From Geobacter sp. (GTDB lineage: Bacteria; Desulfobacterota; Desulfuromonadia; Geobacterales; Geobacteraceae), in NCBI GenBank assembly GCA_003857395.1, contig RPRC01000090.1, forward strand, positions 1 through 47,323: a stretch of DNA of 47,323 bases. The letters run 5' to 3'. Positions 2,170 through 33,826 of the stretch are shown one piece after another. The notes below the pieces were generated by a model. That model worked only from the letters and a program-made list of their open reading frames with translations. It was not told where the DNA came from and searched no databases. The position numbers were made by a program, and so were the translations under genes. Position 1 is the first letter of the stretch. Each line of letters starts with the position of its first letter.

Positions 2170-3168
2170 CTATGAACAGTCAAACGACCCGTAGTGAACC
2201 GTCCTGGTGCCGGTAATGATGAAATGTTTGCCGAAGCGGGTATCCTCGACCATGGCGCCCGAGTTGCCGCAGACCAGCATCGGTTTGTCGGTTATGAACA
2301 GGTGGTGGTCGTCGAGGGGAAACGCGTGGGGGAAACCGGGCATGGTGCCCTTGTAGACCGCAACCTGACCGTAGTCTTCGCAGATGTCTTCCAGGTTCAG
2401 TTTGAAGGTACGCACGATGCGATAGGTGAAGGCGGCAAGTCCTACTTTGGCGGCTGCTTCCGGCTCGCTGATGGTTAGCTGCTTTTTCAGGTAATTCCGG
2501 TAATCATTGCAGCCGAGGTCCCGCAGCAGCCTTCTGAAATCCTCGCTGTACAGGGCCCCGGCAACGCCGGCGAGGGCAAGGGGGGGAACTTCGATGAGTG
2601 CTGCCGGGAGTCTTCTATCGGCAAGAATCGTGGAAAAACAGAGCTCGCCGCCCGGTTTCAGAACTCGAAAAATCTCAGCGAAGACCGCTTTTTTGTCGGG
2701 TGAAAGGTTGATGATTTCGTTGGTTATCACCACGTCTACCGAATTGTCCTTGATGCCGAGGGATTTAAGGTCTTCCGGAAACCCTTTCAGAAACTCCACG
2801 TTCGGCTTCTTGTAACGGAATTTCTTCATCTGGCCGGCCAGATGCTTGTTGGCGATTGCAAGGAGCGAGTCCCGCATGTCCAGACCGATCACTTTGCCTT
2901 TGGACCCGACGAGACGTGAGGCGGCAAAGGCTGACTGGCCGCTGCCGCAACCGAGGTCGAGAACTACACATCCTTCGAGATCCGGTGGGAGAGGGGAGGC
3001 ACTGCCAAAGGGCGCTGACAGTATTTCCGGGTCGATTAGATCCAGAACCTCTTCCATGTCCGGATGCAGGAATTCCGACCGACACCCGCAGCCGACAATT
3101 TCACCGTCGCGCAATACTTTTTCATAGTACAACGTTGATTTCTTAAGCTTCTGCGGCTCCTTCGCCAT
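2170..3168 (-). CDS. ArsM-like SAM-dependent methyltransferase lacking the As(III)-binding cysteines
   Basis: A 332-residue class I methyltransferase with SAM motif I VLDLGCGSG (69-77), an acidic loop (VIGLDM, 93-98) and the KPGGELCFS strand, arranged as in arsenite methyltransferases (NLSPDKKAVF, LADRRLP, GALYSEDFRRLL). The cysteine that ArsM carries before NLSPDK is Glu151 here (ITNEIINL), and the cysteine before GALY is replaced (LALAGVAGALY). A GCGC cluster sits at 26-29 near the N-terminus. The substrate may therefore not be arsenite. Start: ATG at 3168 behind a G-rich Shine-Dalgarno. A candidate operator shared with arsR1 lies about 110 bp upstream. Family membership is clear; activity is uncertain. 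Confidence 0.75.
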   Translation of the reverse strand: MAKEPQKLKKSTLYYEKVLRDGEIVGCGCRSEFLHPDMEEVLDLIDPEILSAPFGSASPLPPDLEGCVVLDLGCGSGQSAFAASRLVGSKGKVIGLDMRDSLLAIANKHLAGQMKKFRYKKPNVEFLKGFPEDLKSLGIKDNSVDVVITNEIINLSPDKKAVFAEIFRVLKPGGELCFSTILADRRLPAALIEVPPLALAGVAGALYSEDFRRLLRDLGCNDYRNYLKKQLTISEPEAAAKVGLAAFTYRIVRTFKLNLEDICEDYGQVAVYKGTMPGFPHAFPLDDHHLFITDKPMLVCGNSGAMVEDTRFGKHFIITGTRTVHYGSFDCS

Positions 3169-3276
3169 GCGTGTTCCCCCCCCCTTAAAAAGATGTGGTC
3201 CGACAAATTTCCCGAACAGTAGCATTTCAAATAGTCATTTTCAAGGTACAAACGGGTTGATTGATAAATAATTGCT

Positions 3277-8688: not shown

Positions 8689-8731
8689 TTGACATGGGCA
8701 TCAGTCTTGATGTATGAGCATATAGTCATAT
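8689..8731 (+). promoter_or_regulatory. arsR1 promoter with candidate operator copy 2
   Basis: A -35 TTGACA (8689-8694) and a weak -10 TATGAG (8713-8718, spacing 18). The -10 is embedded in GTATGAGCATATAGTCATAT (8712-8731), an inverted-repeat outline ATGA...TCAT that matches the site at 3277-3296. An ArsR repressor bound there would block RNA polymerase directly. Confidence 0.6.
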
Positions 8732-8744
8732 GGTGGAGGAAGAC

Positions 8745-9059
8745 ATGAGTGAACTTACCGTTGCGCGGGCCGAGATACTGAAGGCGATTGCTCAGCCGAC
8801 CCGTATGAAGATTATCGAGTTTCTGCGGGAGGGGGAACGCTGCGTGTGCGAGATATTCCCGGCTATTGACGAGGAACAATCGAACACCTCCCGGCACCTC
8901 AACATGATGCAAAGTTGCGGCATCCTTGCCCGGCGCAAGGAGGGCATAAAAATCATGTACTGGTTGAAACATCCGGAGGTGCTGGAAATTCTGGAATTGG
9001 TATCGGCAATCCTGAGGAAAGAAATCAGCGGCAAGAATGACCTGCTCAAGGCGGTCTGA
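8745..9059 (+). CDS. arsR: ArsR/SmtB-family metalloid-responsive repressor (arsR1)
   Basis: 104 residues with a winged helix-turn-helix. The metal-binding helix carries the vicinal cysteine pair RCVCEIF, equivalent to the ELCVCDL As(III)/Sb(III) box. The recognition helix is QSNTSRHLNMMQSCGIL. The ATG at 8745 is 7 nt after GGAGGA and is preferred over an ATG at 8730. Its own promoter contains an operator that is repeated upstream of the ArsM-like gene. It probably controls the thioredoxin and permease genes downstream. Confidence 0.88.
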   Translation: MSELTVARAEILKAIAQPTRMKIIEFLREGERCVCEIFPAIDEEQSNTSRHLNMMQSCGILARRKEGIKIMYWLKHPEVLEILELVSAILRKEISGKNDLLKAV

Positions 9060-9389
9060 GTGTACCTGCGAAAACAGGTGCGTTTCATCCCGGGCGCTGA
9101 TTCCTCAGTCAGCTTCCATCCGGAAATTCTCGGCAGGGTTTGGGTTGGAACTTTCCCGAAGCCTCTCGTAATCGGTCGCCACCCGAGACACGGATCAAGT
9201 AATTTGCTTGATTCTGGCGCTTTCCTCGCTATCGATAGCGTGCAATGAAACCGTACGAGAGACTCCGAAAAAGCCCCAGCCCAACGGGGGGTAGCACTGT
9301 TGGGGAGATTCCGAATGAAAATCAGGTAGAAAGATTGATGAAGAACAGGCTTGCACCTGACCTGTCATATACCAATAAAGGAGAAAATC
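9060..9389. other. Intergenic leader-like region with several hairpins
   Basis: 330 bp with no credible gene. It contains a hairpin ATCAAG/CTTGAT around position 9200, the perfect 14-bp palindrome CGCTATCGATAGCG (9227-9240), and a G/C-rich stem region from about 9265 to 9315 (GCCCCAGCCCAACGGGGG then TGTTGGGGAG). Such a length between arsR1 and its likely target is unusual and could be a structured leader or decayed sequence. It does not match a riboswitch family I can recognise. Confidence 0.4.
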
Positions 9390-9617
9390 ATGAAAATCGA
9401 AATTTTGGGAACCGGCTGCGCGAAATGTAAGAAGTTATACGAAAATACTCTTGAAGCAGTGAAGCTGAGCGGCAAAGAGGCTGAGGTATCGAAGGTGGAG
9501 GACATCAAGGACATCGTCGCGTACGGCGTCATGTCAACCCCGGCAATCGTGGTGGATGGTGTGGTCAAGGTTTCCGGCAAACTGGTTTCCCCTGAGGAAA
9601 TCAAGGCGATGCTGTAA
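9390..9617 (+). CDS. Small thioredoxin-like redox protein (TM0996/MTH895 family)
   Basis: 75 residues with the short thioredoxin fold: MKIEILGTGC then the active site CAKC (10-13), the cis-proline strand MSTPAIVVDG and the tail SGKLVSPEEIKAML. The ATG at 9390 follows AAAGGAG; an upstream frame adds only 13 residues without a ribosome site. These mini-thioredoxins are commonly encoded next to ArsP/DUF318 permeases, as here (permease 143 bp downstream), and are thought to supply reducing power for or interact with the permease or its substrate. That role is inference. Confidence 0.9.
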   Translation: MKIEILGTGCAKCKKLYENTLEAVKLSGKEAEVSKVEDIKDIVAYGVMSTPAIVVDGVVKVSGKLVSPEEIKAML

Positions 9618-9626
9618 TAGCTTGTC

Positions 9627-9670
9627 AAAGTCCTCCGGTCTCCCCTTTTAAGGGGGGCTCGGGGGACTTT
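9627..9670. repeat. Inverted repeat of the AAAGTCCYCC...GGGGGACTTT type
   Basis: AAAGTCC at the left and GGGGGACTTT at the right frame a central CCCCTTTTAAGGGGGG hairpin. The design (outer AAATCC/GGATTT-like arms plus a CCCCTTT-AAAGGGG core) is the same as in the 16715-16859 repeats, so it belongs to a dispersed miniature repeat family. It may also act as a transcription attenuator between the thioredoxin and permease genes. Confidence 0.6.
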
Positions 9671-9760
9671 ACCTTGCATGACCATCACAATAGGTAAAAG
9701 ACAGAATCGAACTGAATTTTCCCGTATACCGAGTGAAATTGATTACGAAAGGACTATCGC

Positions 9761-11062
9761 ATGAACTGGAGGGATGAATGGAAACCTCTCGCGCTTATCG
9801 TGGCCGTTTTCCTCGGCTGTTACTATCTGCCTGTGGGCACGGAGCGATTCAATAACGCAATTCTGGAAGCCTTTCATCTGGTCAAGTGGTATGCGCAGGA
9901 GCATGTGATTCTCTGTCTGGTGCCGGCCTTTTTCATTGCCGGGGCCATTGGCGTCTTTGTCAGCCAGGCTTCGGTCATGAAGTACCTGGGTCCCAAAGCA
10001 AACAAGGTCCTTGCCTATGGTGTGGCGTCGGTCTCCGGTACCATCCTGGCGGTCTGTTCCTGTACTGTGTTGCCGCTGTTTGCCAGTATCTATTTCCGGG
10101 GTGCGGGACTTGGTCCGGCTTCGGCCTTTCTCTATTCCGGTCCGGCAATTAATATCCTCGCCATCGTCCTCACCGCACGCGTGCTTGGGCCGGAACTGGG
10201 CATCGCCCGTGCTGTGGGCGCAATTTCATTCAGCGTTATCATTGGCGTGCTGATGCACCTGTTTTTCCTCAAGGAGGAGCGGGAGAAGGCTGATGCGCAG
10301 GTAATTTTTCCCGATGACGGCGTGAAACGGCCGCTGTGGCAGAATGGCCTTTACTTTGCGTCCATGGTCGGCATCCTGGTCTTTGCCAACTGGGGAAAAC
10401 CTGCCGGGGACACCGGTGTCTGGCAGGCGCTCTACCAAGCCAAGTGGTTGCTGACCTCGCTCTCCGCCATTGCCTTGGCAATCATGCTGGTTGCCTGGTT
10501 TGGAGTGAAGGCGTGGAAGGTCGTTTCCTCGGTTATTCTGGTTACGGCCCTGGTTTTGATCGTTCCCGATCAACCCTTGGTTCCTTTCATTGCCGGGATC
10601 ATTGCCCTCTCGATTATTACCAATACGGAAACCCCGGAGACCAGCGAGTGGTTCTCTTCCTCCTGGGATTTTGCCAAGAAGATACTTCCGCTGCTGCTCT
10701 TTGGTGTACTGATTGCCGGGGCACTCCTGGGACGGGTCGGTCATGAGGGACTCATTCCTTCCCAATGGGTTGCGAGCATGGTTGGCGGCAATTCCCTCTG
10801 GGCCAATTTCTTTGCCTCGTTCGCCGGGGCATTCATGTACTTTGCTACCCTGACCGAGGTGCCGATTCTGCAGGGGCTTATCGGCTCTGGCATGGGGAAG
10901 GGTCCTGCTCTGGCGCTGTTGCTGGCCGGTCCGGCACTGTCGCTGCCCAACATGCTGGTCATACGCAGCATCATGGGCACCAGGAAAACCGTGGTGTTTG
11001 TGTCCCTGGTCATTGTCATGTCGACCATAACCGGTATGCTGTATGGAGCGATTTTCGGGTAG
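9761..11062 (+). CDS. ArsP/DUF318-family permease (predicted organoarsenical or metalloid exporter)
   Basis: 433 residues with about 9-10 membrane segments in two homologous halves. The conserved family motif is CSCTVLPLF followed by GPASAFLYSGPAINI, with the matching second-half segment GKGPALALLLAGPALSLPN. Cysteine residues in CSC are the family's candidate thiol site. Characterised ArsP proteins export trivalent methyl- or aromatic arsenicals; assignment of that substrate here rests on context (two arsR genes, arsC, acr3) and a neighbouring redox protein, and is inference. A ribosome site (gaaagga) lies upstream of the ATG. Confidence 0.85.
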   Translation: MNWRDEWKPLALIVAVFLGCYYLPVGTERFNNAILEAFHLVKWYAQEHVILCLVPAFFIAGAIGVFVSQASVMKYLGPKANKVLAYGVASVSGTILAVCSCTVLPLFASIYFRGAGLGPASAFLYSGPAINILAIVLTARVLGPELGIARAVGAISFSVIIGVLMHLFFLKEEREKADAQVIFPDDGVKRPLWQNGLYFASMVGILVFANWGKPAGDTGVWQALYQAKWLLTSLSAIALAIMLVAWFGVKAWKVVSSVILVTALVLIVPDQPLVPFIAGIIALSIITNTETPETSEWFSSSWDFAKKILPLLLFGVLIAGALLGRVGHEGLIPSQWVASMVGGNSLWANFFASFAGAFMYFATLTEVPILQGLIGSGMGKGPALALLLAGPALSLPNMLVIRSIMGTRKTVVFVSLVIVMSTITGMLYGAIFG

Positions 11063-11091
11063 TGCAATGTAACACCTAAACGTCGGGAATT

Positions 11092-11295
11092 GTGCTGCCG
11101 GTGCTCTACTGTATAGCTACCGGCTTGCCGGTCGCCCTGTTTTCGCTGGTCATCGCGATCGGTCTGCAACAGTTGGCAGAAGCATACAAGGCACTTGCTG
11201 GGTACGAGTTATGCTCACGGCGCCTGACAGGCCTTTTATTCATCGGCATTGGTATCTACTACAGCATGACAAAGATTTTTGGCGTCGGTATCTAA
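11092..11295 (+). pseudogene. C-terminal remnant of an ArsG-family/TauE-like (CcdA-type) efflux permease
   Basis: The frame VLPVLYCIATGLPVALFSL...RRLTGLLFIGIGIYY...IFGVGI resembles the last two to three membrane segments of the ArsG-family aromatic arsenical permeases (cytochrome c biogenesis/sulfite exporter fold). Full proteins are over 200 residues; here an in-frame TAA at 11077 closes the frame 15 nt upstream, and the preceding sequence is the end of the ArsP gene. The 5' part is gone, so this is most likely a deletion scar. A functional 67-residue membrane peptide starting at GTG 11092 is less likely because no ribosome site precedes it. Confidence 0.65.
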
Positions 11296-11331
11296 TTGCC
11301 GCACGATGCAGTCGCCGGTGGTGAAAAATAA

Positions 11332-11363
11332 CCTACTGTATCCGCTTATGCGGATACAGTAGG
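11332..11363. promoter_or_regulatory. arsR: Perfect palindrome, candidate ArsR2 operator (site i)
   Basis: CCTACTGTATCCGC-TTAT-GCGGATACAGTAGG: 14-bp arms, 4-nt loop. The core CCGC-TTAT-GCGGATA recurs upstream of arsR2 (12213-12236) and arsC (12602-12617). No T run follows, so a terminator is unlikely. It is about 50 bp upstream of the GTG of the next gene and so could control the 11414-12212 genes. Confidence 0.6.
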
Positions 11364-11413
11364 ATGTGCGGTAACAATAACGAAAATTTTAACCGCTATC
11401 GAGGAGGACGGCA

Positions 11414-11614
11414 GTGGGAAAAAAAGGATTCGTACTGTGTGTCTGTCAGGGAACGTGCCCGAGTTTCACCAAGATGGCTATTTTTGGCGTGCTTTCCGAT
11501 ATTCGGCGGGTAAAACTCTTCGACTATGTCTGCCTTCATCCACAACTCTGCGTCAGTGACGACACCGTTGCCAATCGTGAAATGGTCCACACGTTTCAAG
11601 GCAGACGGTCATGA
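11414..11614 (+). CDS. Truncated cysteine-rich protein, possibly the N-terminus of an HdrA-like Fe-S protein
   Basis: 66 residues starting at GTG 11414 behind GAGGAGGAC. The first 50 residues (GFVLCVCQGTCPSF, then FDYVCLHPQLC) look like the N-terminal segment of longer Fe-S or heterodisulfide-reductase A-like proteins; after about residue 52 the sequence no longer resembles them and stops. The TGA stop overlaps the ATG of the zinc-ribbon gene (ATGA), so translation is coupled. It may be a relic fused by deletion, yet it keeps a good ribosome site. The family assignment is weak. Confidence 0.45.
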   Translation: MGKKGFVLCVCQGTCPSFTKMAIFGVLSDIRRVKLFDYVCLHPQLCVSDDTVANREMVHTFQGRRS

Positions 11615-11853
11615 AAAGAAGATTCTGCCGAGAATGTGGTCATGAAATGCTGAAGGAACTAACCCCGGAAGCTCCCAGGTTTTTCTGTAAGAAGTGCGAA
11701 AGCTATAGCCTCTACGATGAATTTGACATGGATCCGTATTGCCCGGTGTGCGAAACAAGACTCCAGGTCTGCTCCAAATGCAGCCATGGGTATTTCTGTA
11801 CTACCTGTGGGGGGCTCGTATCGAGGAAAAAGATCGTCTGGAAACTGCTGTAA
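11611..11853 (+). CDS. Small multi-zinc-ribbon protein
   Basis: 80 residues with five CxxC-type pairs: CREC, CKKC, CPVC, CSKC and CTTC, spaced as two to three zinc-ribbon knuckles. The start overlaps the previous stop. No known family is recognised with confidence. The gene lies between a probable ArsR2 operator and the AhpD-like gene. The many thiols could bind Zn(II) for structure or capture As(III), but only Zn-ribbon-like spacing is actually visible. Confidence 0.65.
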   Translation: MKRRFCRECGHEMLKELTPEAPRFFCKKCESYSLYDEFDMDPYCPVCETRLQVCSKCSHGYFCTTCGGLVSRKKIVWKLL

Positions 11854-11909
11854 CCACTACTGATTTCGGCCTGGCGAAAATTTCACTAGATAAAAAGGAG
11901 AGTAATGTA

Positions 11910-12212
11910 ATGGATGAACGTACCAGGGAACTTATTGCCATCAGTGTTTCAGCAGGCGTTAACTGCCAACCATGTCTTGCCTGGCATCTGGACAAGGCCC
12001 GTGAGTTGGGCATTGACGACGAGACCATTCGTGCTGCAATTGAAGTAGGTCATATGGTTGAAAAGGGCGCCATGAGCACGATGCGAAAGTTTTCTGCCGA
12101 GATTCTGACACAAGAAGCGGCTCCGGATACTGCCTGTTGTTCCGGTGGCAATAAGGGTGGAGGGTCTTGTTGCTGTCAGGGTATCCTTCACCTTGGGAAA
12201 TTTTTGCCTTGA
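11910..12212 (+). CDS. AhpD-like carboxymuconolactone decarboxylase-family protein with Cys-rich tail
   Basis: 100 residues. The CMD/AhpD core shows TRELIAISVSAGVNCQPCL with the redox CxxC (QPC preceded by NC) and the downstream His (AWHLDKA). Such proteins act as alkylhydroperoxidase-type thiol redox enzymes. The ATG at 11910 has an AGGAG 10 bp upstream; a longer frame beginning at 11739 is the overlap with the zinc-ribbon gene. The C-terminal tail is unusual: ACCSGG followed by GGGSCCCQG, five cysteines in about 18 residues, a pattern suited to soft-metal or metalloid binding. Followed directly by the arsR2 promoter. Confidence 0.8.
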   Translation: MDERTRELIAISVSAGVNCQPCLAWHLDKARELGIDDETIRAAIEVGHMVEKGAMSTMRKFSAEILTQEAAPDTACCSGGNKGGGSCCCQGILHLGKFLP

Positions 12213-12237
12213 CCGCATCTGTCTATGCGGATATATT
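12209..12237 (+). promoter_or_regulatory. arsR: arsR2 promoter with operator in the spacer (site ii)
   Basis: A -35 TTGACC (12209-12214), exactly 17 nt, and -10 TATATT (12232-12237). The palindrome CCGCAT-CTGTCT-ATGCGG (12213-12230) fills the spacer. Only 6 nt separate the -10 from the ATG at 12244, so the predicted transcription start coincides with the start codon: a leaderless message. Confidence 0.75.
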
Positions 12238-12243
12238 AAACAC

Positions 12244-12582
12244 ATGAAAACTACGGCACGTATGTTTAAAGCGCTTTCCGACGAAACACGTCTTCGTATC
12301 CTCTGTCTCCTGCTGGAGGGTGAGCTTTGCGTCTGCGATCTGATGGCTGTTTTGCAACTTCCCCAATCAACGGTCTCGCGCCATCTGGCCTATCTTAAGA
12401 ACTCTGGCTGGGTCGATGACCGCAGGTGCGGTGTCTGGATGTACTACTCCCTTGCGGAAAACGGCAGTGAGCTGCGAAAAGGTGTTCTTGGTACTCTGCA
12501 TGCGACGCTACCTTTTCTGGAAGTAGCGGTAGCAGATCGCCTACGCTTACGCGAACTAAGCCGCAATAACATGTGCGCCTGA
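12244..12582 (+). CDS. arsR: ArsR-family arsenical repressor (arsR2)
   Basis: 112 residues with the canonical ELCVCDL metalloid-binding box in the DNA-binding domain and the recognition helix LPQSTVSRHLAYL. The wing is RRCGVWMYYSL. The ATG at 12244 is chosen because the promoter -10 ends 6 nt before it; a frame open from 12145 overlaps the AhpD-like gene. No Shine-Dalgarno is present, consistent with a leaderless mRNA. It sits just ahead of arsC and acr3, and matching palindromes at 11332, 12213 and 12602 suggest that it controls the island's right part and itself. Confidence 0.93.
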   Translation: MKTTARMFKALSDETRLRILCLLLEGELCVCDLMAVLQLPQSTVSRHLAYLKNSGWVDDRRCGVWMYYSLAENGSELRKGVLGTLHATLPFLEVAVADRLRLRELSRNNMCA

Positions 12583-12601
12583 TTTTTTTATGCCATACCA
12601 C

Positions 12602-12617
12602 CCGCTCATGCGGATAT
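12602..12617. promoter_or_regulatory. arsR: Candidate ArsR2 operator (site iii) ahead of arsC
   Basis: CCGC-TCAT-GCGGATAT, the same core as sites i and ii. It lies 18 bp before the arsC ATG, where a bound repressor would block transcription of arsC-acr3. Confidence 0.6.
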
Positions 12618-12634
12618 GCCGAAAGAGAGATAGG

Positions 12635-13072
12635 ATGAACAAAAAGGTTTTGTTCCTTTGCACCGCTAATTCCTGCCGCTCACAAATGGCGGAGGGAATT
12701 GCCAATTATTTCCTGGGCGACCGGCTGGAAGCCGTTTCCGCGGGGACCGAGGAGTCTTTCGTTAACCCGCGAGCAATCGCGGTGCTAAAGGAAATCGGTA
12801 TCGATATTTCTCAACACCGTTCCAAAAATCTGGACGAATTTTCCACGCAGGATTTCGAATATGTCATTACGCTGTGTGGTGATGCGAACGAGAAATGTCC
12901 GCTCTTCTTTGGAGGTGTGCGGAGAACGCATCTCGGTTTTTCCGATCCGGCCAAGGCTACAGGAGGCGAAGAAGAGATTCTGACGGAATTCCGGAAAGTC
13001 AGAGACAAGATAAAAAACACTTTGATTGATTTTTTCGGGAGAGAATTCAACGAGCGATCTGTTTCCAGGTAG
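12635..13072 (+). CDS. arsC: Arsenate reductase, thioredoxin-coupled LMW-phosphatase type
   Basis: 145 residues. It reduces As(V) to As(III) in the cytoplasm. The P-loop CTANSCRSQMAEG holds the nucleophilic Cys plus a second Cys; the two resolving cysteines are in CGDANEKCP, the layout of the thioredoxin-dependent ArsC. The Asp of the DPA motif (FSDPAKATG) completes the site. The ATG at 12635 follows AGATAGG; an upstream in-frame codon at 12590 overlaps the operator. The As(III) produced is the substrate of ACR3, encoded 29 bp downstream. Confidence 0.95.
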   Translation: MNKKVLFLCTANSCRSQMAEGIANYFLGDRLEAVSAGTEESFVNPRAIAVLKEIGIDISQHRSKNLDEFSTQDFEYVITLCGDANEKCPLFFGGVRRTHLGFSDPAKATGGEEEILTEFRKVRDKIKNTLIDFFGREFNERSVSR

Positions 13073-13101
13073 TCTGATCTCAGCTACAGGAGGAGAATCA
13101 A

Positions 13102-14184
13102 ATGGTACAGGGACTAACTAAAAGACTGTCTTTTCTCGACCGCTATCTGACCGTCTGGATCTTTGCGGCCATGTTTCTCGGGCTTGCGTTGGGCTACTTT
13201 GTTCCCGCGTCGAAGGTCCTCATAAACAAGTTTTCGGTGGGGACGACCAACATACCCATTGCCATCGGCCTGATTCTGATGATGTATCCACCTCTGGCCA
13301 AAGTCAAGTACGAGGAGATGCCGCTGGTTTTCCGGAACAAGAAGGTTCTCGGTCTCTCCCTGGTGCAGAACTGGGTGATTGGACCGATCCTGATGTTCGT
13401 GCTGGCCATCGTCTTTCTTCACAACTATCCGGAATACATGATTGGCCTGATTATGATGGGTATGGCCCGTTGTATCGCCATGGTCATCGTCTGGAACGAC
13501 CTGGCCTGCGGCGACCGTGAATATGCCGCCGGTCTGGTGGCCTTCAACTCTATTTTTCAGGTGCTGTTCTTCTCTGTCTACTGCTACGTCTTCGTGACGA
13601 TTCTGCCACCCTTGTTCGGCATCAAGGGCGCGGTGGTGAATATTACCATGGGTGAAATTGCCAAAAGCGTCTTCATCTACCTGGGAATTCCGTTCATTGC
13701 CGGGATGATCACCCATTTCAGCCTGACCCGGATCAAGGGGAAGGAATGGTTCGAAAATTCCTTTGTCCCGGTCATTAGTCCGCTTACTCTGATCTTTCTG
13801 CTCTTCACTATCGTGGTCATGTTTGCCACCCAGGGAGACAAGATCCTCAGCCAGCCACTGGATGTGGTTGTGATAGCTATTCCGCTCCTTATCTACTTCG
13901 TCGTCATGTTCGTAGTCTCCTTTTTCATGAGCAAGAAACTTGGAACCAACTACGAGAAGAGCGCGACCCTGTCGTTTACCGCCGCGAGCAACAACTTCGA
14001 ATTGGCCATTGCTGTGGCAATTTCCGTGTTTGGCCTCAACTCCGGTCAGGCCTTCGCCTCGGTCATTGGCCCCTTGGTTGAGGTGCCGGTCCTGATCAGT
14101 CTGGTAAACTTGGCCTTCTATTTCCAGCGAAAATATTTTACCAACCAGATGGCCTGCAAAGTGAAAGACGTGACGCTTCCGTAA
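13102..14184 (+). CDS. acr3: ACR3-family arsenite efflux permease
   Basis: 360 residues and ten predicted membrane segments, the usual size. The essential membrane cysteine lies in [19 protein letters not shown], the signature of ACR3 proteins; a second conserved stretch is [16 protein letters not shown]. It exports As(OH)3 using the membrane potential or proton gradient. The Shine-Dalgarno is AGGAGGAG. It forms an operon with arsC under the site iii operator. Confidence 0.95.
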
Positions 14185-14580: not shown

Positions 14581-16398
<1,818 letters not shown>

Positions 16399-16406
<8 letters not shown>

Positions 16407-16710
16407 TCAGGAACCGCATAAAGGGACAGAGGCCTCGACTGAAATGGAGAAGAGCGTTGCCGCGAAAGAGGCACGGAAGATCTCTGCCCGCCGGGAACGG
16501 GACCATAGCCTGCTGTTCGGCCTGAGCATCTTCGGCATTGTTGGCTGGTCGGTGGTGGTTCCCACGCTGCTCGGAGTAGCCCTCGGTATCTGGATTGACG
16601 GACGCTGGCCGGGACGTTTTTCCTGGACCCTGATGCTGCTGTTCGGCGGACTCATCTGCGGATGTCTGAACGCCTGGTACTGGGTCAGCCATGTGTCGAA
16701 GAATGAGTGA
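16399..16710 (+). CDS. atpQ: N-ATPase AtpQ (AtpI-like membrane protein)
   Basis: 103 residues starting at GTG within the end of atpC. A charged N-terminal 35 residues precedes two membrane helices (about 46-68 and 76-96) with the AtpI-type motif GVALGIWIDGRWPG. AtpQ is one of the two small membrane proteins that distinguish N-ATPase operons; it is thought to help assemble the c-ring or to act in Mg2+/Ca2+ handling, by analogy with AtpI. Confidence 0.85.
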
Positions 16711-16714
16711 AGTC

Positions 16715-16859
16715 AAATCCCCACTGACCCCCCTTTCATAAAGGGTGGAAATGAAATATCGCTCCCTTTAAGAGGAGGGGACTGAAGGATTTCAACTTTT
16801 AAAAAGAAGGGAGAAACAAAACTTCCCCCTTTGAGAAAGGGGGATTGAGGGGGATTTAG
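16715..16859. repeat. Cluster of AAATCCCC / CCCCCTTT-AAAGGGGG inverted repeats inside the ATPase operon
   Basis: The 180-bp gap between atpQ and atpR is filled with repeats: AAATCCCC...CCCCCCTTTCATAAAGGG near 16715-16745, a middle CTCCCTTTAAGAGGAGGGG part, and CCCCCTTTGAGAAAGGGGG followed by ATTGAGGGGGATTT (16825-16857). It is the same family as the element at 9627-9670. The hairpins could reduce readthrough or stabilise upstream mRNA inside the operon. Confidence 0.7.
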
Positions 16860-16891
16860 AGCGATATCCTGTTGAAATGGAGATTCCACAC

Positions 16892-17188
16892 ATGAATTTT
16901 TCAGCCATAAATCTTTTACTTACTGTCTTGGCCGGAGTAGCACTCGGCCTGTTCTACTTCGGGGGGCTGTGGCTCACGGTGCGGAAAATTGCCGTCACCG
17001 CAAGGCCGGGCTTCCTCATGTTCGGCAGTTTCGTCGTACGGTTGCTGGTGACGCTGTGCGGATTCTATTTCGTTATGGACGATAGTTGGGAGTTGCTCGT
17101 GGCCTGTCTTGCCGGTTTCCTGCTGATGAGGATTGTTCTAACCCGCCTGCTGGGCTCTGGGAGTAGTGAATCACATCTTTCCGCCTGA
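16892..17188 (+). CDS. atpR: N-ATPase AtpR
   Basis: 98 residues with three membrane helices (about 5-28, 38-60, 62-80). Small AtpR proteins occur only in N-ATPase operons; a conserved Arg in the second helix (FVVRLLVTLCGFY) has been proposed to interact with the c-subunit carboxylates. I prefer ATG 16892 (GGAG 9 nt upstream) over ATG 16877, which has no ribosome site. The gap before it holds the inserted repeats. Confidence 0.82.
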   Translation: MNFSAINLLLTVLAGVALGLFYFGGLWLTVRKIAVTARPGFLMFGSFVVRLLVTLCGFYFVMDDSWELLVACLAGFLLMRIVLTRLLGSGSSESHLSA

Positions 17189-17200
17189 TCTGGAGGCTGT

Positions 17201-17911
17201 ATGGAATTGAGTCCCGACAGCACGATATTCTGGCAATGGGGGCCGATCAAGCTCAATGCCACCATTGCCTTTACCTGGGTCGTGATGGCGGTTCTGGTCG
17301 TCGGCTCGTGGCTGATCACCCGTCGTCTCTCTTCCGATGGGAAACTTTCCCGCCGGCAGAATCTGTTGGAGACCCTGGTCACCTTTATGAACGACCAGAT
17401 CAGGTCCACCAGTCGGCAGGAGCCAGGACGTTTCCTCCCTTTTGTCGGGACTCTGTTCCTTTTTATTGCCTTTTCCAACTGCCTGGAAATATTTCCCGGA
17501 TTCGAGCCTCCCACCGGTTCCCTTTCCACCACCGCTGCCCTGGCAATCTGCGTCTTTATAGCTGTTCCGTTTTTCGGTGTGCTGCAGAAGGGGGTCTTCG
17601 GCTACCTGAAACACTATATCAAGCCGTCGGTTTTCATGATGCCGTTTGAGGTGATCGGTGAATTCTCACGAACCCTCGCCCTGGCGGTCCGTCTTTACGG
17701 GAACATCATGAGCGGCACCATAATCGTGGGGATTCTGCTCAGTATAGCCCCCCTGTTTTTCCCCATCATCATGCAGGCGCTGGGGCTTCTCATCGGGTTT
17801 ATCCAGGCGTACATCTTCGCCGTTCTTGCAATGGTCTACATCGCTTCCGCCACGTCGGTCCAGAAGGGTCAGGAGGCAGAGAGTGAAAAAGAAGTAAAGG
17901 GAGGTAGCTGA
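17201..17911 (+). CDS. atpB: N-ATPase subunit a
   Basis: 236 residues and about five to six membrane helices. The essential stator arginine sits in EFSRTLALAVRLYGNIMSG, the canonical subunit a signature; the last helix GLLIGFIQAYIFAVLAMVYI is also typical. Together with the c-ring it forms the ion half-channels. Start ATG 17201 is 12 bp after atpR, with TCTGGAGG upstream. Confidence 0.95.
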   Translation: MELSPDSTIFWQWGPIKLNATIAFTWVVMAVLVVGSWLITRRLSSDGKLSRRQNLLETLVTFMNDQIRSTSRQEPGRFLPFVGTLFLFIAFSNCLEIFPGFEPPTGSLSTTAALAICVFIAVPFFGVLQKGVFGYLKHYIKPSVFMMPFEVIGEFSRTLALAVRLYGNIMSGTIIVGILLSIAPLFFPIIMQALGLLIGFIQAYIFAVLAMVYIASATSVQKGQEAESEKEVKGGS

Positions 17912-17913
17912 GT

Positions 17914-18186
17914 ATGGACAACATCGGACTCATCGGAATGATTTCCATCATTGTGGCGGGGGGAACCATGGCCGTCGGCTCCATTGGTCCGGCTCTCGGC
18001 GAGGCCCGCGCAGTGTCGCAGGCGCTGAGTGCCATCGCCCAGCAGCCTGATGCCTCAGGGACCATCAGCCGGACACTGTTCGTAGGCCTGGCAATGATTG
18101 AGTCAATGGCCATCTATTGTTTCGTGGTGGCGTTGATCCTGGTCTTTGCCAATCCGTTCTGGAAATACGTCATTGAACACCCGTGA
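17914..18186 (+). CDS. atpE: N-ATPase subunit c with two membrane carboxylates
   Basis: 90 residues forming a two-helix hairpin. The ion-binding Glu63 is followed by Ser64 and a Tyr68 (LAMIESMAIY), and helix 1 carries Glu30 (GPALGEARAV) where the Na+ enzyme of Ilyobacter has Gln32. The Glu-Ser pair and Tyr are sodium-type ligands; the Thr of the full Na+ motif is Met65. A second carboxylate in helix 1 is a known feature of N-ATPase c subunits. Na+ coupling is therefore likely but not proven. Confidence 0.93.
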   Translation: MDNIGLIGMISIIVAGGTMAVGSIGPALGEARAVSQALSAIAQQPDASGTISRTLFVGLAMIESMAIYCFVVALILVFANPFWKYVIEHP

Positions 18187-18195
18187 GGATAGAGG

Positions 18196-19041
18196 ATGGG
18201 AACCGACTGGTTTACGATTATCGCGCAGATAATCAACTTCCTGATACTTGTCGCCCTTCTGAAGCGCTTTCTCTATGGCCCTATCGTACGGGCCATGGAC
18301 CGGCGCGAAGCGGAAATCTCCTCCCGGCTGAATGTGGCCTCGGAAAAGACCGCAGAAGCGGAGAAAGAGAGAGCGCGCTACGAAGGATTGGCGAGTGAGC
18401 TTGCCGGAAATCGTGATGCGATGCTCGCCAAGGCAAGGGATGAGGTGACTGCGCTTCGTCAGAATCTTCTGGAAAATGCTCGTCAAGAGTTGGACAGGAA
18501 TCGGAGCCAATGGCAGGAATCGTTTCATCGGGAGCGGGAGTCGTTTCTGCTCGCTCTGCGGCGTCATGTCAGCCAGGAGGTCTGCGCTGTTGCTCACCAG
18601 GCCGTAACCGAGATGGCCGATACCTCCCTCGAAGAGAGAATGGCTATTTGTCTTGAGCGACGGATACGCGAGTTGGACGAAACGGAACGTACCAAGTTGG
18701 CAGCTCACTTCCTTTTGGCCGGGCAGGAAATCGTTGTCAGGAGTGCTTTTGAGATGAATTCGGAGGCGCGGAAAACAATTTTCCGAGCGCTGCATGACTT
18801 GACAGCGGTGGCTGCGGAAACGGGAGGTTACTCCGGCAGCGGAGACCATGATCCGCGGTTGCCCGTTGAAGCGAGTGTGGCCGGGAGCGGCGGAGTTCGT
18901 TTCGAAGTGGATCCTGCCATGGTCTGCGGCATTGAAATAGTTTCCGGCGGCAGGTCTCTGGCCTGGAACCTGGAGGTATATCTGGACGAGATGGAGCAGC
19001 GTCTGCTGGAGGCTATCGGGAAAGGTTCGGGCGGGGATTAG
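18196..19041 (+). CDS. atpF: N-ATPase extended subunit b (delta-like C-terminus)
   Basis: 281 residues, far longer than a normal b subunit (about 160). One N-terminal membrane helix (about 8-28: [20 protein letters not shown]), a long charged coiled coil (about 40-170) and a C-terminal globular part ending [20 protein letters not shown], which resembles the C-terminal domain of subunit delta. The operon has no separate delta gene, so this protein probably fills both stator roles. The ribosome site is AGGATAGAGG just ahead of the ATG. Confidence 0.88.
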
Positions 19042-19072
19042 AAGGAGATATTCCGTCAAAAAGCAGGAGAAT

Positions 19073-20608
19073 ATGGAAGCTGACAAGGTAATCACCGATT
19101 CATCAAGGGTTTTTGACGAGGTTCTGCAAGAATACCATTCCGAGGTGCGTCTGATCGATGCAGGTTCGTTGATCTATCTGAACGGCGGCATTGCCAGGCT
19201 GACAGGCCTGCCGAATGTTCAGTCCAACGAACTGGTTCGTTTCCCCGGCGCTGTGTTCGGTATCGCTTTCAATCTGGACCCGGACGAAGTAGGGGTTATC
19301 ATGTTGGGCGATAGCGGGTCTCTGCAGGTCGGCTGCTCCGTGCGACGCACCGGACGGGTGCTGGATGCCCCGGTTGGCGAGGAATTGCTGGGCCGGGTTA
19401 TTGATTTTCTCGGCACACCCCTGGACACCCTCGGCTCGTTGCAGAACTCCCAACGGCGTCCTGTGGAGCGGGAGGCTCCCGCCATCATGCACCGGGCTCC
19501 GGTGACCGTGCCGCTGCAGACCGGCATCAAGGTCGTGGATGCCCTCATTCCTATCGGCAGGGGGCAGCGTCAGCTGATCATCGGCGACCGACAGGCGGGC
19601 AAGACTGCACTCATCCTCGACACCATCATCAACCAGAAGAATAAAGACGTTATTTGCATCTACTGTGCTATCGGCCAACAGGGCTCGGCGGTGGCGAAGC
19701 TGGTGGCCGACCTTGTCAGTCACGACGCCATGGGGCACTGTATCGTGGTGGTCGCCGAAGGTTCCGACCCGGCCGGACTCCAATATGTTACCCCCTATGC
19801 GGCCACTACCATGGCGGAATACTTTATGGAACAGGGGCGCGACGTCCTTATCATCTATGATGATCTGACCCGGCACAGTCGGGCATACCGGGAGCTTTCC
19901 CTCCTCCTGCGGCGGCCGCCGGGACGCGAGGCTTTTCCCGGCGATATCTTTTATATCCACTCCCGGCTTCTGGAGCGCTCTACCCATCTGGATGAAGAGC
20001 ACGGCGGTGGTTCGCTGACCGCCCTGCCGGTAATTGAAACCGAGGCGCAGAACCTTTCCGCCTATATCCCCACGAACCTCATTTCCATCACCGACGGACA
20101 GATCTACCTGTCGCCAGAGCTGTTCCAGAAGGGAATCCTTCCGGCCGTGGATGTGGGCAAATCGGTATCACGGGTCGGCGGCAAGACCCAGCTTCCTGCC
20201 TATCGAACTGTGGCAGGCGATCTGCGGCTTTCCTATGCCCAGTTCGAGGAGATGGAGGCCTTTTCCCGCTTCAGCAGCCGTCTGGATGAAGCGGCACGGC
20301 GGATCCTGGAGCGGGGCAGGAGGGTGCGGGAGACTCTCAAGCAGCGGCAGTACGATCCCATGCCGGTCAGTGAGCAGATCGCGGTACTTGTTGCAGTAAC
20401 CGGCGGTCTTTTCGACGCGCTGATGCCGGAGCAGGTCTCGGAAGCTGAAAGCCTGGTGCGAAGTGCCATGCCCAGCTCTCTTCCGGACCTGTGCGAACGG
20501 ATCGAGGCGGGGGACGACCTCAACGAGCAGGACCGGGACCGGATCCTGGCTATGATCCGATCCCTCATATCTTCCTTGCAGGGAAATGAAAACCATGCCG
20601 ACCCTTGA
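19073..20608 (+). CDS. atpA: N-ATPase subunit alpha
   Basis: 511 residues, the non-catalytic F1 subunit. Walker [14 protein letters not shown], the segment [21 protein letters not shown] and the arginine-finger region [15 protein letters not shown] are all present. Start ATG 19073 follows AGCAGGAG. Its 3' end overlaps atpG by 23 bp. Confidence 0.95.
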
Positions 20609-32373: not shown

Positions 32374-33522
32374 ATGAACTATTCGGGAAAAACAAAGAAA
32401 GAAAGCATTTCCGCTGAGTCTGTCCGTTGCAGTACGTCGCCTGACCTGCTTTACGATTCCTCTTCCTGTTGAGGTCCAAAAACATTTTCCCAGGGTGGGG
32501 AAATTAGCGAAACGGTTCCCGGTTTTTTAGCCTGGCTTGACACTCCTGCCGGCCGAATTCCACGAATATCGACAAATTTGACATTATCTGATCGGGCAGG
32601 TGCATGGCTGGTTCGGTGGGGGATTGGGCGACTGTCGTATCTCGTTCCTGCTGGAATTTATGCTGTCGGTCAGCCGACAGCACAAGACCCAATTCTCGTT
32701 ACGGCCAACTATAAAATGAGCTTCGACATTCTGCGCAGCCAGTTGGCCGGACGCAATGTGTGGATTCTCGTACTTGAAACCAATGGCGTGAATGTCTGGT
32801 GTGCAGCCGGTAAAGGAACCTTTGGGACTCATGAACTTGTCCGGAGAATCGAGCGAACAGGTCTGCCTCAGCTGGTTTCACATCGCAGGTTGATTGTGCC
32901 GATTCTCGGCGCAGCCGGGATTGCCGCCCATGAAGTAAGGGCTTTGTCAGGATTTGAAGTTTGCTATGCGACTGTCAGGGCTGGAGACCTTCCGGAATTT
33001 TTTGATAACGGCATGATTACAACGCCAAATATGAGACAAATGACATTCACTTTGCGGGAACGGCTCATTCTGATTCCCGTGGAATTGATGCTGTCCTTGA
33101 AGCCGCTCGCGCTCATTGGTTTTCTGCTTCTGATTGTCCCTCTACTGCTGGGTTTGCCCACGGCAGGGTTTCAAATGATGGCAGCTTTTTATGCCGCGGC
33201 CTTGACCGGATTAGCTGTGACACCGATACTTCTGCCCTGGCTCCCGGGGCGGTATTTTTCTTGTAAAGGAGCCGTGGCAGGTCTTGCACTAGTACTTGGG
33301 TACTATTTTATCGGTCCCAAGTCTGATCATGAAATGTTCATAATTCCAGCTGCTGTCCTGATTCTGCCGGCGGTAAGTGCTTTTTATGCGCTCAATTTTA
33401 CCGGATGTACTCCCTTTACTTCCAGTTCGGGCGTGAAGAAAGAAATGCTTATTGCCCTGCCGATTATGGGTGGAGGTATTCTTGTGGGAACAGTTCTGGC
33501 GTTAGTCGGTATTTTTCTTTAA
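32374..33522 (+). CDS. hgcA: HgcA mercury-methylating corrinoid protein, with in-frame TGA (candidate selenocysteine)
   Basis: HgcA transfers a methyl group from its corrinoid to Hg(II). The cap-helix motif NVWCAAGK (Cys143 if read from 32374) provides the Co ligand; five membrane helices follow (about residues 235-380) and the family tail FTGCTPFTSSSGVKKEM is intact. The frame from ATG 32374 (GAGAAAG upstream) runs 32 codons, meets TGA at 32470-32472 (codon 33), and continues through WLDTPAGRIPRIST and DRAGAWLVRWGIGR, residues conserved at HgcA N-termini. No ATG, GTG or TTG lies between the TGA and TTG 32578, which would delete those residues and has no ribosome site. Total 382 codons. Sec reading is supported by the SECIS-like hairpin. 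Alternatives: an ATT start at 32503 or a sequencing error. Confidence 0.85.
32470..32504 (+). other. hgcA: In-frame UGA with SECIS-like hairpin in hgcA
   Basis: TGA at 32470-32472 sits in Ser-Cys-TGA-Gly-Pro. From 32484 to 32504 the RNA can form an 8-bp stem (ATTTTCCC with GGGGAAAT, one G-U pair) closed by the loop AGGGT. The loop begins 20 nt after the UGA. Bacterial SECIS elements (for example E. coli fdhF) lie directly downstream of UGA with a G-rich apical loop at about this distance. No sequence-independent proof is available from the window; genes for SelA/B/C/D are not in it. Confidence 0.65.
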
Positions 33523-33538: not shown

Positions 33539-33826
33539 GTGAAAGGTTTCAGATACCTTGATCGGGTAACCTCTTTGAGTTTGGATGCGGATGTATGTGT
33601 TGCCTGCGGCATGTGCCTTGAGGTGTGTCCTCATCAGGTTTTCGAAATTATTGAGAGTTCTGCTTGCCTTCAGGACAGGGACGCGTGTATGGAGTGTGGC
33701 GCATGTATGCGAAACTGCCCGGTCTCCGCTCTACGGGTTAATGTTGGCGTCGGCTGTGCGACCGGCCTTATTCATGAATGGCTCAAGGCTAAAAAGCTCG
33801 TGAAATCTTCAGGAAACTGCTGCTGA
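33539..33826 (+). CDS. hgcB: HgcB ferredoxin for mercury methylation
   Basis: 95 residues starting at GTG 33539 (ACAGGAG upstream), 16 bp after hgcA. Two 4Fe-4S binding motifs, CVACGMCLEVCP and CMECGACMRNCP, then the conserved extra Cys in GVGCATG and a C-terminal Cys-Cys pair (GNCC) used for Hg(II) handling in known HgcB proteins. It reduces the corrinoid of HgcA. All functional cysteines are present, so the pair is expected to be active. Confidence 0.97.
   Translation: MKGFRYLDRVTSLSLDADVCVACGMCLEVCPHQVFEIIESSACLQDRDACMECGACMRNCPVSALRVNVGVGCATGLIHEWLKAKKLVKSSGNCC

Follow-up and report, generated by a model that had tools for sequence, protein, structure and literature searches.

Microbial formation of methylmercury, a toxic compound, has hgcA as its key gene, and the cap-helix motif of the gene product, N(V/I)WCAAGK, holds the Cys that serves as cobalt ligand. 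Among the available parts of the work on Pseudodesulfovibrio mercurii ND132, the importance of C93 in HgcA is described in PMC11588087, the corrinoid domain is given as starting at residue 15 (PMC11588087, PMC7305189), and the C-terminal Cys pair of HgcB is placed by modelling on a disordered tail and may take part in Hg transfer (PMC7305189).

Selenocysteine (Sec) forms of these proteins are also on record. The accessible text of PMC11588087 raises the possibility that selenoproteins occur among hgcA and hgcB homologs. A 2026 review (PMC13188914) lists, in its accessible portion, HgcA (NF040863) with the motif CU and Sec-containing HgcB (NF040864) with the motif GVGU, names accession WP_250697417.1 for HgcA, and credits Sec-HgcA to Haft and Gwadz 2023 and to an earlier survey. 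The author of the earlier note on the present DNA knew of no described Sec-containing HgcA, a statement that this entry overturns. A term search of the main text of the earlier survey (PMC2398784) did not find the family name. A table in PMC9312934, the part of that paper at hand, includes a CO dehydrogenase/acetyl-CoA synthase gamma subunit selenoprotein (COG1456, WP_012647565.1) without a motif. It appears to be the same family as HgcA under an older name, because the later review, in the portion available, brackets that name beside HgcA (NF040863). By the bacterial SECIS model given in the same portion of PMC13188914, the stem has 4-16 bp, the loop is 3-9 nt long and has G in the first two positions, the distance from the UGA is 16-37 nt, and the energy is -7.5 kcal/mol or lower.

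The hgcA-hgcB locus

The window, which is the whole stretch of 47,323 nucleotides of Geobacter sp. DNA that was analysed, contains the following features of hgcA and its neighbour:

32374..33522, plus strand: hgcA with one TGA read through (NF040863 and PF03599 matches)
32374..32490, plus strand: N-terminal arm, residues 1-39, with the putative Cys-Sec pair, predicted flexible (AlphaFold)
32470..32472, plus strand: TGA codon, predicted Sec-33, adjoining Cys-32 (Cys in homologs, recurring TGA)
32484..32504, plus strand: SECIS-like hairpin, apical loop 19-20 nt past the TGA, G in the first two loop positions (folding)
32578..32580, plus strand: TTG, the first usual start past the TGA and the start of the shortened database form
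32800..32802, plus strand: codon of Cys-143, the cap-helix Cys in NVWCAAGK (sequence)
33052..33516, plus strand: membrane part with five long helices, residues 227-381 (AlphaFold)
33539..33826, plus strand: hgcB, with two [4Fe-4S] motifs, GVGC and a C-terminal Cys-Cys (NF040864)

The frame opens with ATG 32374 and runs for 32 codons through Cys-32 to the TGA at 32470-32472, in the context SSSC-TGA-GPKTF; the earlier note had described this Ser-Cys-TGA-Gly-Pro arrangement with the right coordinates. Its observation that the frame stays open past the TGA also holds, with 349 sense codons up to the TAA at 33520-33522, and the read-through product has 382 residues with the predicted Sec at residue 33. 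The residues before the TGA read MNYSGKTKKESISAESVRCSTSPDLLYDSSSC and those after it GPKTFSQGGEISETVPGF; the two stretches cited as typical of HgcA N-termini, WLDTPAGRIPRIST and DRAGAWLVRWGIGR, are both present in the frame. No in-frame ATG, GTG or TTG occurs between the TGA and TTG 32578, as the earlier note had said. The database form of the protein (P0002) starts at this TTG, comprises 314 aa and is devoid of the arm.

The read-through product scores 427.3 bits against NF040863 (cut-off 275) and 37.7 bits against PF03599 (cut-off 24.8). The NF040863 match starts at residue 62, and the N-terminal arm thus lies outside the model. NVWCAAGK occupies residues 140-147 and is invariant in 30 chosen alignment rows; by this motif, Cys-143 presumably corresponds to Cys93 of ND132. 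The AlphaFold helices of the membrane part span residues 227-258, 262-289, 295-313, 320-343, and 354-381. The adjoining hgcB gene has a product that scores 116.8 bits against NF040864 (cut-off 99). The family score, the cap motif, the five helices, and the hgcB neighbour make it clear that the gene is hgcA. Read-through of hgcB at its own NCC-TGA was considered and rejected: the sequence past this stop is unlike in relatives (by eye), and the TGA of hgcB is therefore taken as a normal stop. Rfam and tRNA scans of the window gave no matches.

The window also comprises an arsenic-type gene cluster (8730-14184), genes of an alternate F1F0 ATPase (14611-20608), and an arsenite methyltransferase-like gene, which shares the window with the mercury methylation genes:

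2170-3225, minus strand: arsenite methyltransferase-like protein (PRK11873, 140.9 bits, below the cut-off of 263)
near 8730-9059: ArsR-like frame (read from sequence)
9351-9617: small thioredoxin-like protein (read from sequence)
9761-11062: ArsP-type permease (PF03773)
about 11739-12212: AhpD-like protein ending in CCSGGNKGGGSCCCQ (read from sequence)
12145-12582: ArsR-family regulator (PF01022)
12590-13072: low-molecular-weight phosphatase/ArsC-type protein (PF01451)
13102-14184: SBF-family transporter (PF01758)
14611-16014: alternate F1F0 ATPase beta (TIGR03305)
19073-20608: alternate F1F0 ATPase alpha (TIGR03324)

The TGA, its hairpin and the Sec machinery in relatives

Database homologs: The TGA column was read in the best 120 of 7398 database homologs, where the earlier note expected Cys or TGA. 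The arm is present in 99 of these 120 (98 by motif, and P0092 by eye), with Cys-Cys at the place of Cys-TGA. The other 21 begin downstream of the column, the window form P0002 among them, and are probably TGA forms; one of them, P0113 from Geobacter sp. DSM 9736, matches a surveyed TGA locus (L024) by eye. The closest full-length homolog among the best 120 is P0003, with 72% identity and Cys at the TGA column. It reads SCCGPKTFPQGGEINENVPGF where the window reads SCUGPKTFSQGGEISETVPGF. Conservation is thus found upstream of the TGA as well, the full-length homologs being alike on both sides. In the 30-row alignment, C32 and C33 (with Cys entered for the TGA) do not vary; its rows were picked from arm-bearing proteins, so that it shows the place of the column and not the frequency of the arm.

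Geobacter order: The order surveyed is that of Geobacter sp. GAC1 (genome G003). HgcA scores above the cut-off in 94 of its 141 genomes, and 98 genomes have an HgcA match of any kind. Loci were classed by a tblastn-anchored walk upstream from the HgcA core to the first in-frame stop. This was done for 93 loci in 92 genomes, with G093 and G096 (above the cut-off, cut at contig ends) and G039, G078, G087, and G101 (partial, below it) left out. The 93 loci comprise 82 with TGA directly after a Cys codon, 10 Cys forms, and one cut by a contig end; L067 was excluded, as its contig ends within the arm. Gly-Pro directly follows the TGA in 82/82 TGA loci. The stop at the Cys-x-Gly-Pro place is TGA in 82 of the 93 loci and TAA or TAG in none.

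Class and beyond: Outside the order, the class has 63 genomes with an HgcA match, of which 60 were read (G172, G177, and G241 were omitted). Their 60 loci consist of 22 TGA forms, some of which read C-U-PPKAPPG, 37 Cys forms, and the discarded L173. The 32 class loci lacking CCG were counted as Cys forms where CC occurs in the arm. L173 had been a candidate TGA form and was rejected, since its TGA lies upstream of the ATG that opens a Cys-rich arm and the hairpin is absent; it belongs to neither of the two class groups (105 TGA, 47 Cys). Beyond the class, 2 of 17 loci have TGA at this place, those of Hathewaya massiliensis (L019) and Clostridium tunisiense (L020). The CCG motif is present in 4 of the other 15 and absent in 11, and several have no Cys-rich arm. 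In a quick tree of 100 HgcA cores, the TGA and Cys states need 4 changes, 3 of them forced by well-supported branches; within the order they need 3 changes. The two clostridial loci combine C-TGA-TP in hgcA with GVG-TGA in hgcB, and both partners look like selenoproteins.

Hairpin: The earlier note had reported a hairpin at 32484-32504, and its 8 pairs, AGGGT loop, and position 19 nt past the TGA are as described. ViennaRNA adds one pair, giving 9 pairs and a GGG loop 20 nt past the TGA, with -8.6 kcal/mol for 48 nt. Applied to the region as the earlier note had advised, the bacterial SECIS model finds the 9 bp, the GGG loop, the 20 nt spacing, and a core of -8.0 kcal/mol, all within its ranges. 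By itself, the hairpin does not stand out from shuffled sequence: a fold of equal or greater stability arises in 109 of 200 shuffles (z 0.18), and its core energy is reached by 300 of 5000 synonymous recodings. Being unremarkable alone, the hairpin draws its support from comparison with relatives, which were scanned with the geometry of the bacterial SECIS model and with bulges disallowed. A core hairpin of -5 kcal/mol or lower is found in 82/82 TGA loci of the order versus 0/10 Cys loci, and one of -7.5 kcal/mol or lower in 75 of the 82. For 70/82 TGA loci, no more than 5% of synonymous recodings match the stability of the hairpin. In the commonest hairpin class, most stem pairs hold in 77-82 of the 82 TGA loci, and several of those pairs are disrupted in the Cys loci. 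The SECIS-type hairpin thus tracks TGA, not Cys, in the order. Elsewhere in the class, the core hairpin reaches -5 kcal/mol or lower in 21 of the 22 TGA loci. The hgcA hairpins of L019 and L020 are weak, at -0.3 and -4.1 kcal/mol.

Sec machinery: SelB was scored on up to 8 candidates per genome in the order and up to 4 in the rest of the class. Of the 141 genomes of the order, 121 have a SelB match above the cut-off. Across the 92 order genomes with a read locus, SelB occurs in 75/81 TGA genomes versus 7/10 Cys genomes (Fisher p 0.057), a weak test because nearly all genomes of the order have SelB, and also in the genome whose locus is cut by a contig end. Six TGA genomes of the order have no SelB match. 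Of these, G005 has SelB in pieces together with SelA, and G042 and G069 have SelA. In G036, G098, and G109, searches for SelA, an above-cut-off SelB, and an above-threshold tRNA-Sec found none of them, which points to gaps in the assemblies or to Sec decoding having been lost recently. For the class outside the order, SelB is present by eye in 20 of 22 TGA genomes; G264 has none, and G290 is absent among the SelB matches listed. Both clostridial TGA genomes have SelB. The nearest genomes to the window by NadE identity, G080 (94%) and G076 (92%), are also the nearest by HgcA, and both have the same hgcA TGA along with SelA and SelB. A tRNA-Sec above the threshold was found in G076, and none was found in G080 among the 150 of 379 candidates scored.

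The Cys residues in homologs, the recurring TGA, the TGA-linked hairpin, and the SelA and SelB of the nearest genomes strongly support the proposal of the earlier note that codon 33 is selenocysteine. On this comparative evidence, the TGA at 32470-32472 is very likely decoded as Sec.

The predicted Cys-Sec arm and rival readings

The AlphaFold model, made with 30 rows and with Cys in place of Sec, has pLDDT values below 50 at residues 1-39, and mostly confident structure beyond residue 39 (mean 75.9). The Cys-Sec pair is thus predicted to sit on a flexible arm.

The arms of TGA and Cys forms vary in their Cys pairs. Within the 28 residues that precede the motif, a second CC pair was counted in 10/10 Cys forms of the order versus 2/82 TGA forms (the window plus 81 loci; L102 was dropped, as it lies near a contig end). 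The same second pair is present in 70 of 98 Cys-form database proteins from the best 120 of 7398. For the class, pairs were counted up to 85 residues before the core, with Cys-Sec taken as one pair. At least two C-C or C-U pairs are found in 45/47 Cys forms versus 8/105 TGA forms, the window included, and TGA forms mostly carry the one Cys-Sec pair. The Cys-form loci among L116-L174 mostly have three to five CC pairs, often as CCPP, and 32 of 37 have at least three. Fewer CC pairs in TGA forms would be expected if one selenol replaces extra dithiols. On the tree, the pattern takes 10 state changes, with only 4 independent pairs on well-supported branches; in a sign test, on average 2.8 of the 4 pairs go in the same direction and almost none in the opposite one, which is not significant. 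The Cys-pair pattern is accordingly a lead that rests on few independent switches.

Sec decoding and the arm together very likely make up a soft-metal or redox thiol-selenol site. Binding of Hg(II) is tentatively put forward as the job of the Cys-Sec pair. SelB and tRNA-Sec would decode the hgcA TGA as Sec, and the selenolate of the arm may then bind Hg(II) or methylmercury. The flexible arm could present Hg(II) to the corrinoid, and the Hg might pass towards the methyl-corrinoid or to the Cys pair that ends HgcB. Methylation would proceed as it does in other HgcAB: Cys-143 would be the cobalt ligand, and HgcB would supply the electrons (PMC11588087, accessible portion). The arm would not be essential for methylation, because several HgcA proteins outside the class have no arm and the ND132 protein, with its cap Cys at 93 and its corrinoid domain from 15, seems to be without a Cys-Sec arm too. 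The Cys-Sec site would therefore be an aid, not a must, for methylation.

It is quite possible that the pair is present but does not handle mercury and instead works as a redox switch, binds another metal or metalloid, or is an HgcA docking signal. This agrees with the place of the arm outside NF040863, which starts at residue 62, with the HgcA proteins outside the class that have no such arm, and with the arsenic genes in the same window. Against it stand the vicinal thiols within a protein that acts on Hg(II), the arrays of CC pairs in Cys forms, which suit a soft-metal site, and the flexible Cys pair with which HgcB ends, a second such pair that is proposed in the available part of PMC7305189 to take part in Hg transfer. 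For the class that includes Geobacter, it is conceivable, though less likely than not, that one mobile-arm selenol does the work of the several vicinal Cys pairs of Cys-HgcA, with lineages swapping a single Cys-Sec for Cys-Cys arrays.

The readings in which Sec is not inserted fare less well. It is very improbable that the TGA is a real stop, which would leave the first 32 codons as a fossil or chance frame and have HgcA translated from TTG 32578. The 314-aa database form (P0002) and the ordinary stability of the window hairpin are in line with such a stop. Full-length homologs, however, show similarity both before and after the TGA and have Cys at the column, 82 of 93 order loci have TGA here and none has TAA or TAG, and the hairpin tracks TGA, not Cys. 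An upstream leader peptide that ends at the TGA and couples or attenuates translation of a shorter HgcA could account for a hairpin directly after the TGA; it is extremely improbable, as its end and the next residues align as one continuous protein in Cys forms, and 35 codons without a usual start codon follow the TGA. A sequencing error, or Trp under another genetic code, is vanishingly improbable given the same TGA in 82/93 order loci, Cys rather than Trp at the column in homologs, and an hgcB that ends at TGA with sequence beyond it unlike in relatives (by eye).

Selenium and mercury are antagonists, and decoding of the TGA as Sec would bear on this. If the Sec form is the majority in the Geobacter order, the antagonism could act on the methylating enzyme itself, many database HgcA entries are without the N-terminal arm, and studies on the shortened proteins would miss the Cys-Sec site. 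If the selenol exchange is true, most methylators of the Geobacter order would be selenium-dependent, and selenium supply would then set the amount of full-length HgcA. The Cys-pair pattern offers a simple test of the purpose of the arm.

Comparison with known systems

The window proteins resemble HgcAB of P. mercurii ND132, as far as the available parts of the ND132 papers describe it, in having a corrinoid domain with a cap Cys, five helices, and a Cys pair at the C-terminus of HgcB. The cap Cys is residue 93 in ND132 and residue 143 in the window HgcA. The C-terminal Cys pair of HgcB (PMC7305189, accessible portion) and the Cys-Sec pair of the window HgcA are both on predicted flexible segments. 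The window HgcB has GVGC, in contrast to GVGU of Sec-HgcB, and L019 and L020 have TGA in both genes.

A Sec-form majority in the order and the Cys-pair pattern were not reported in the titles or abstract openings searched. This is not proof of absence, because the searches combined HgcA with selenium or N-terminal terms and subscription papers were largely outside them. The Sec-HgcA of PMC13188914, likened here from its table entry, is of the same family and has the same Cys-Sec motif as the window protein. No difference of kind is seen, and the window HgcA is one more member of an already described kind of Sec-HgcA, to which the present analysis adds the survey counts, the control showing that the hairpin is linked to TGA, and the Cys-pair pattern.
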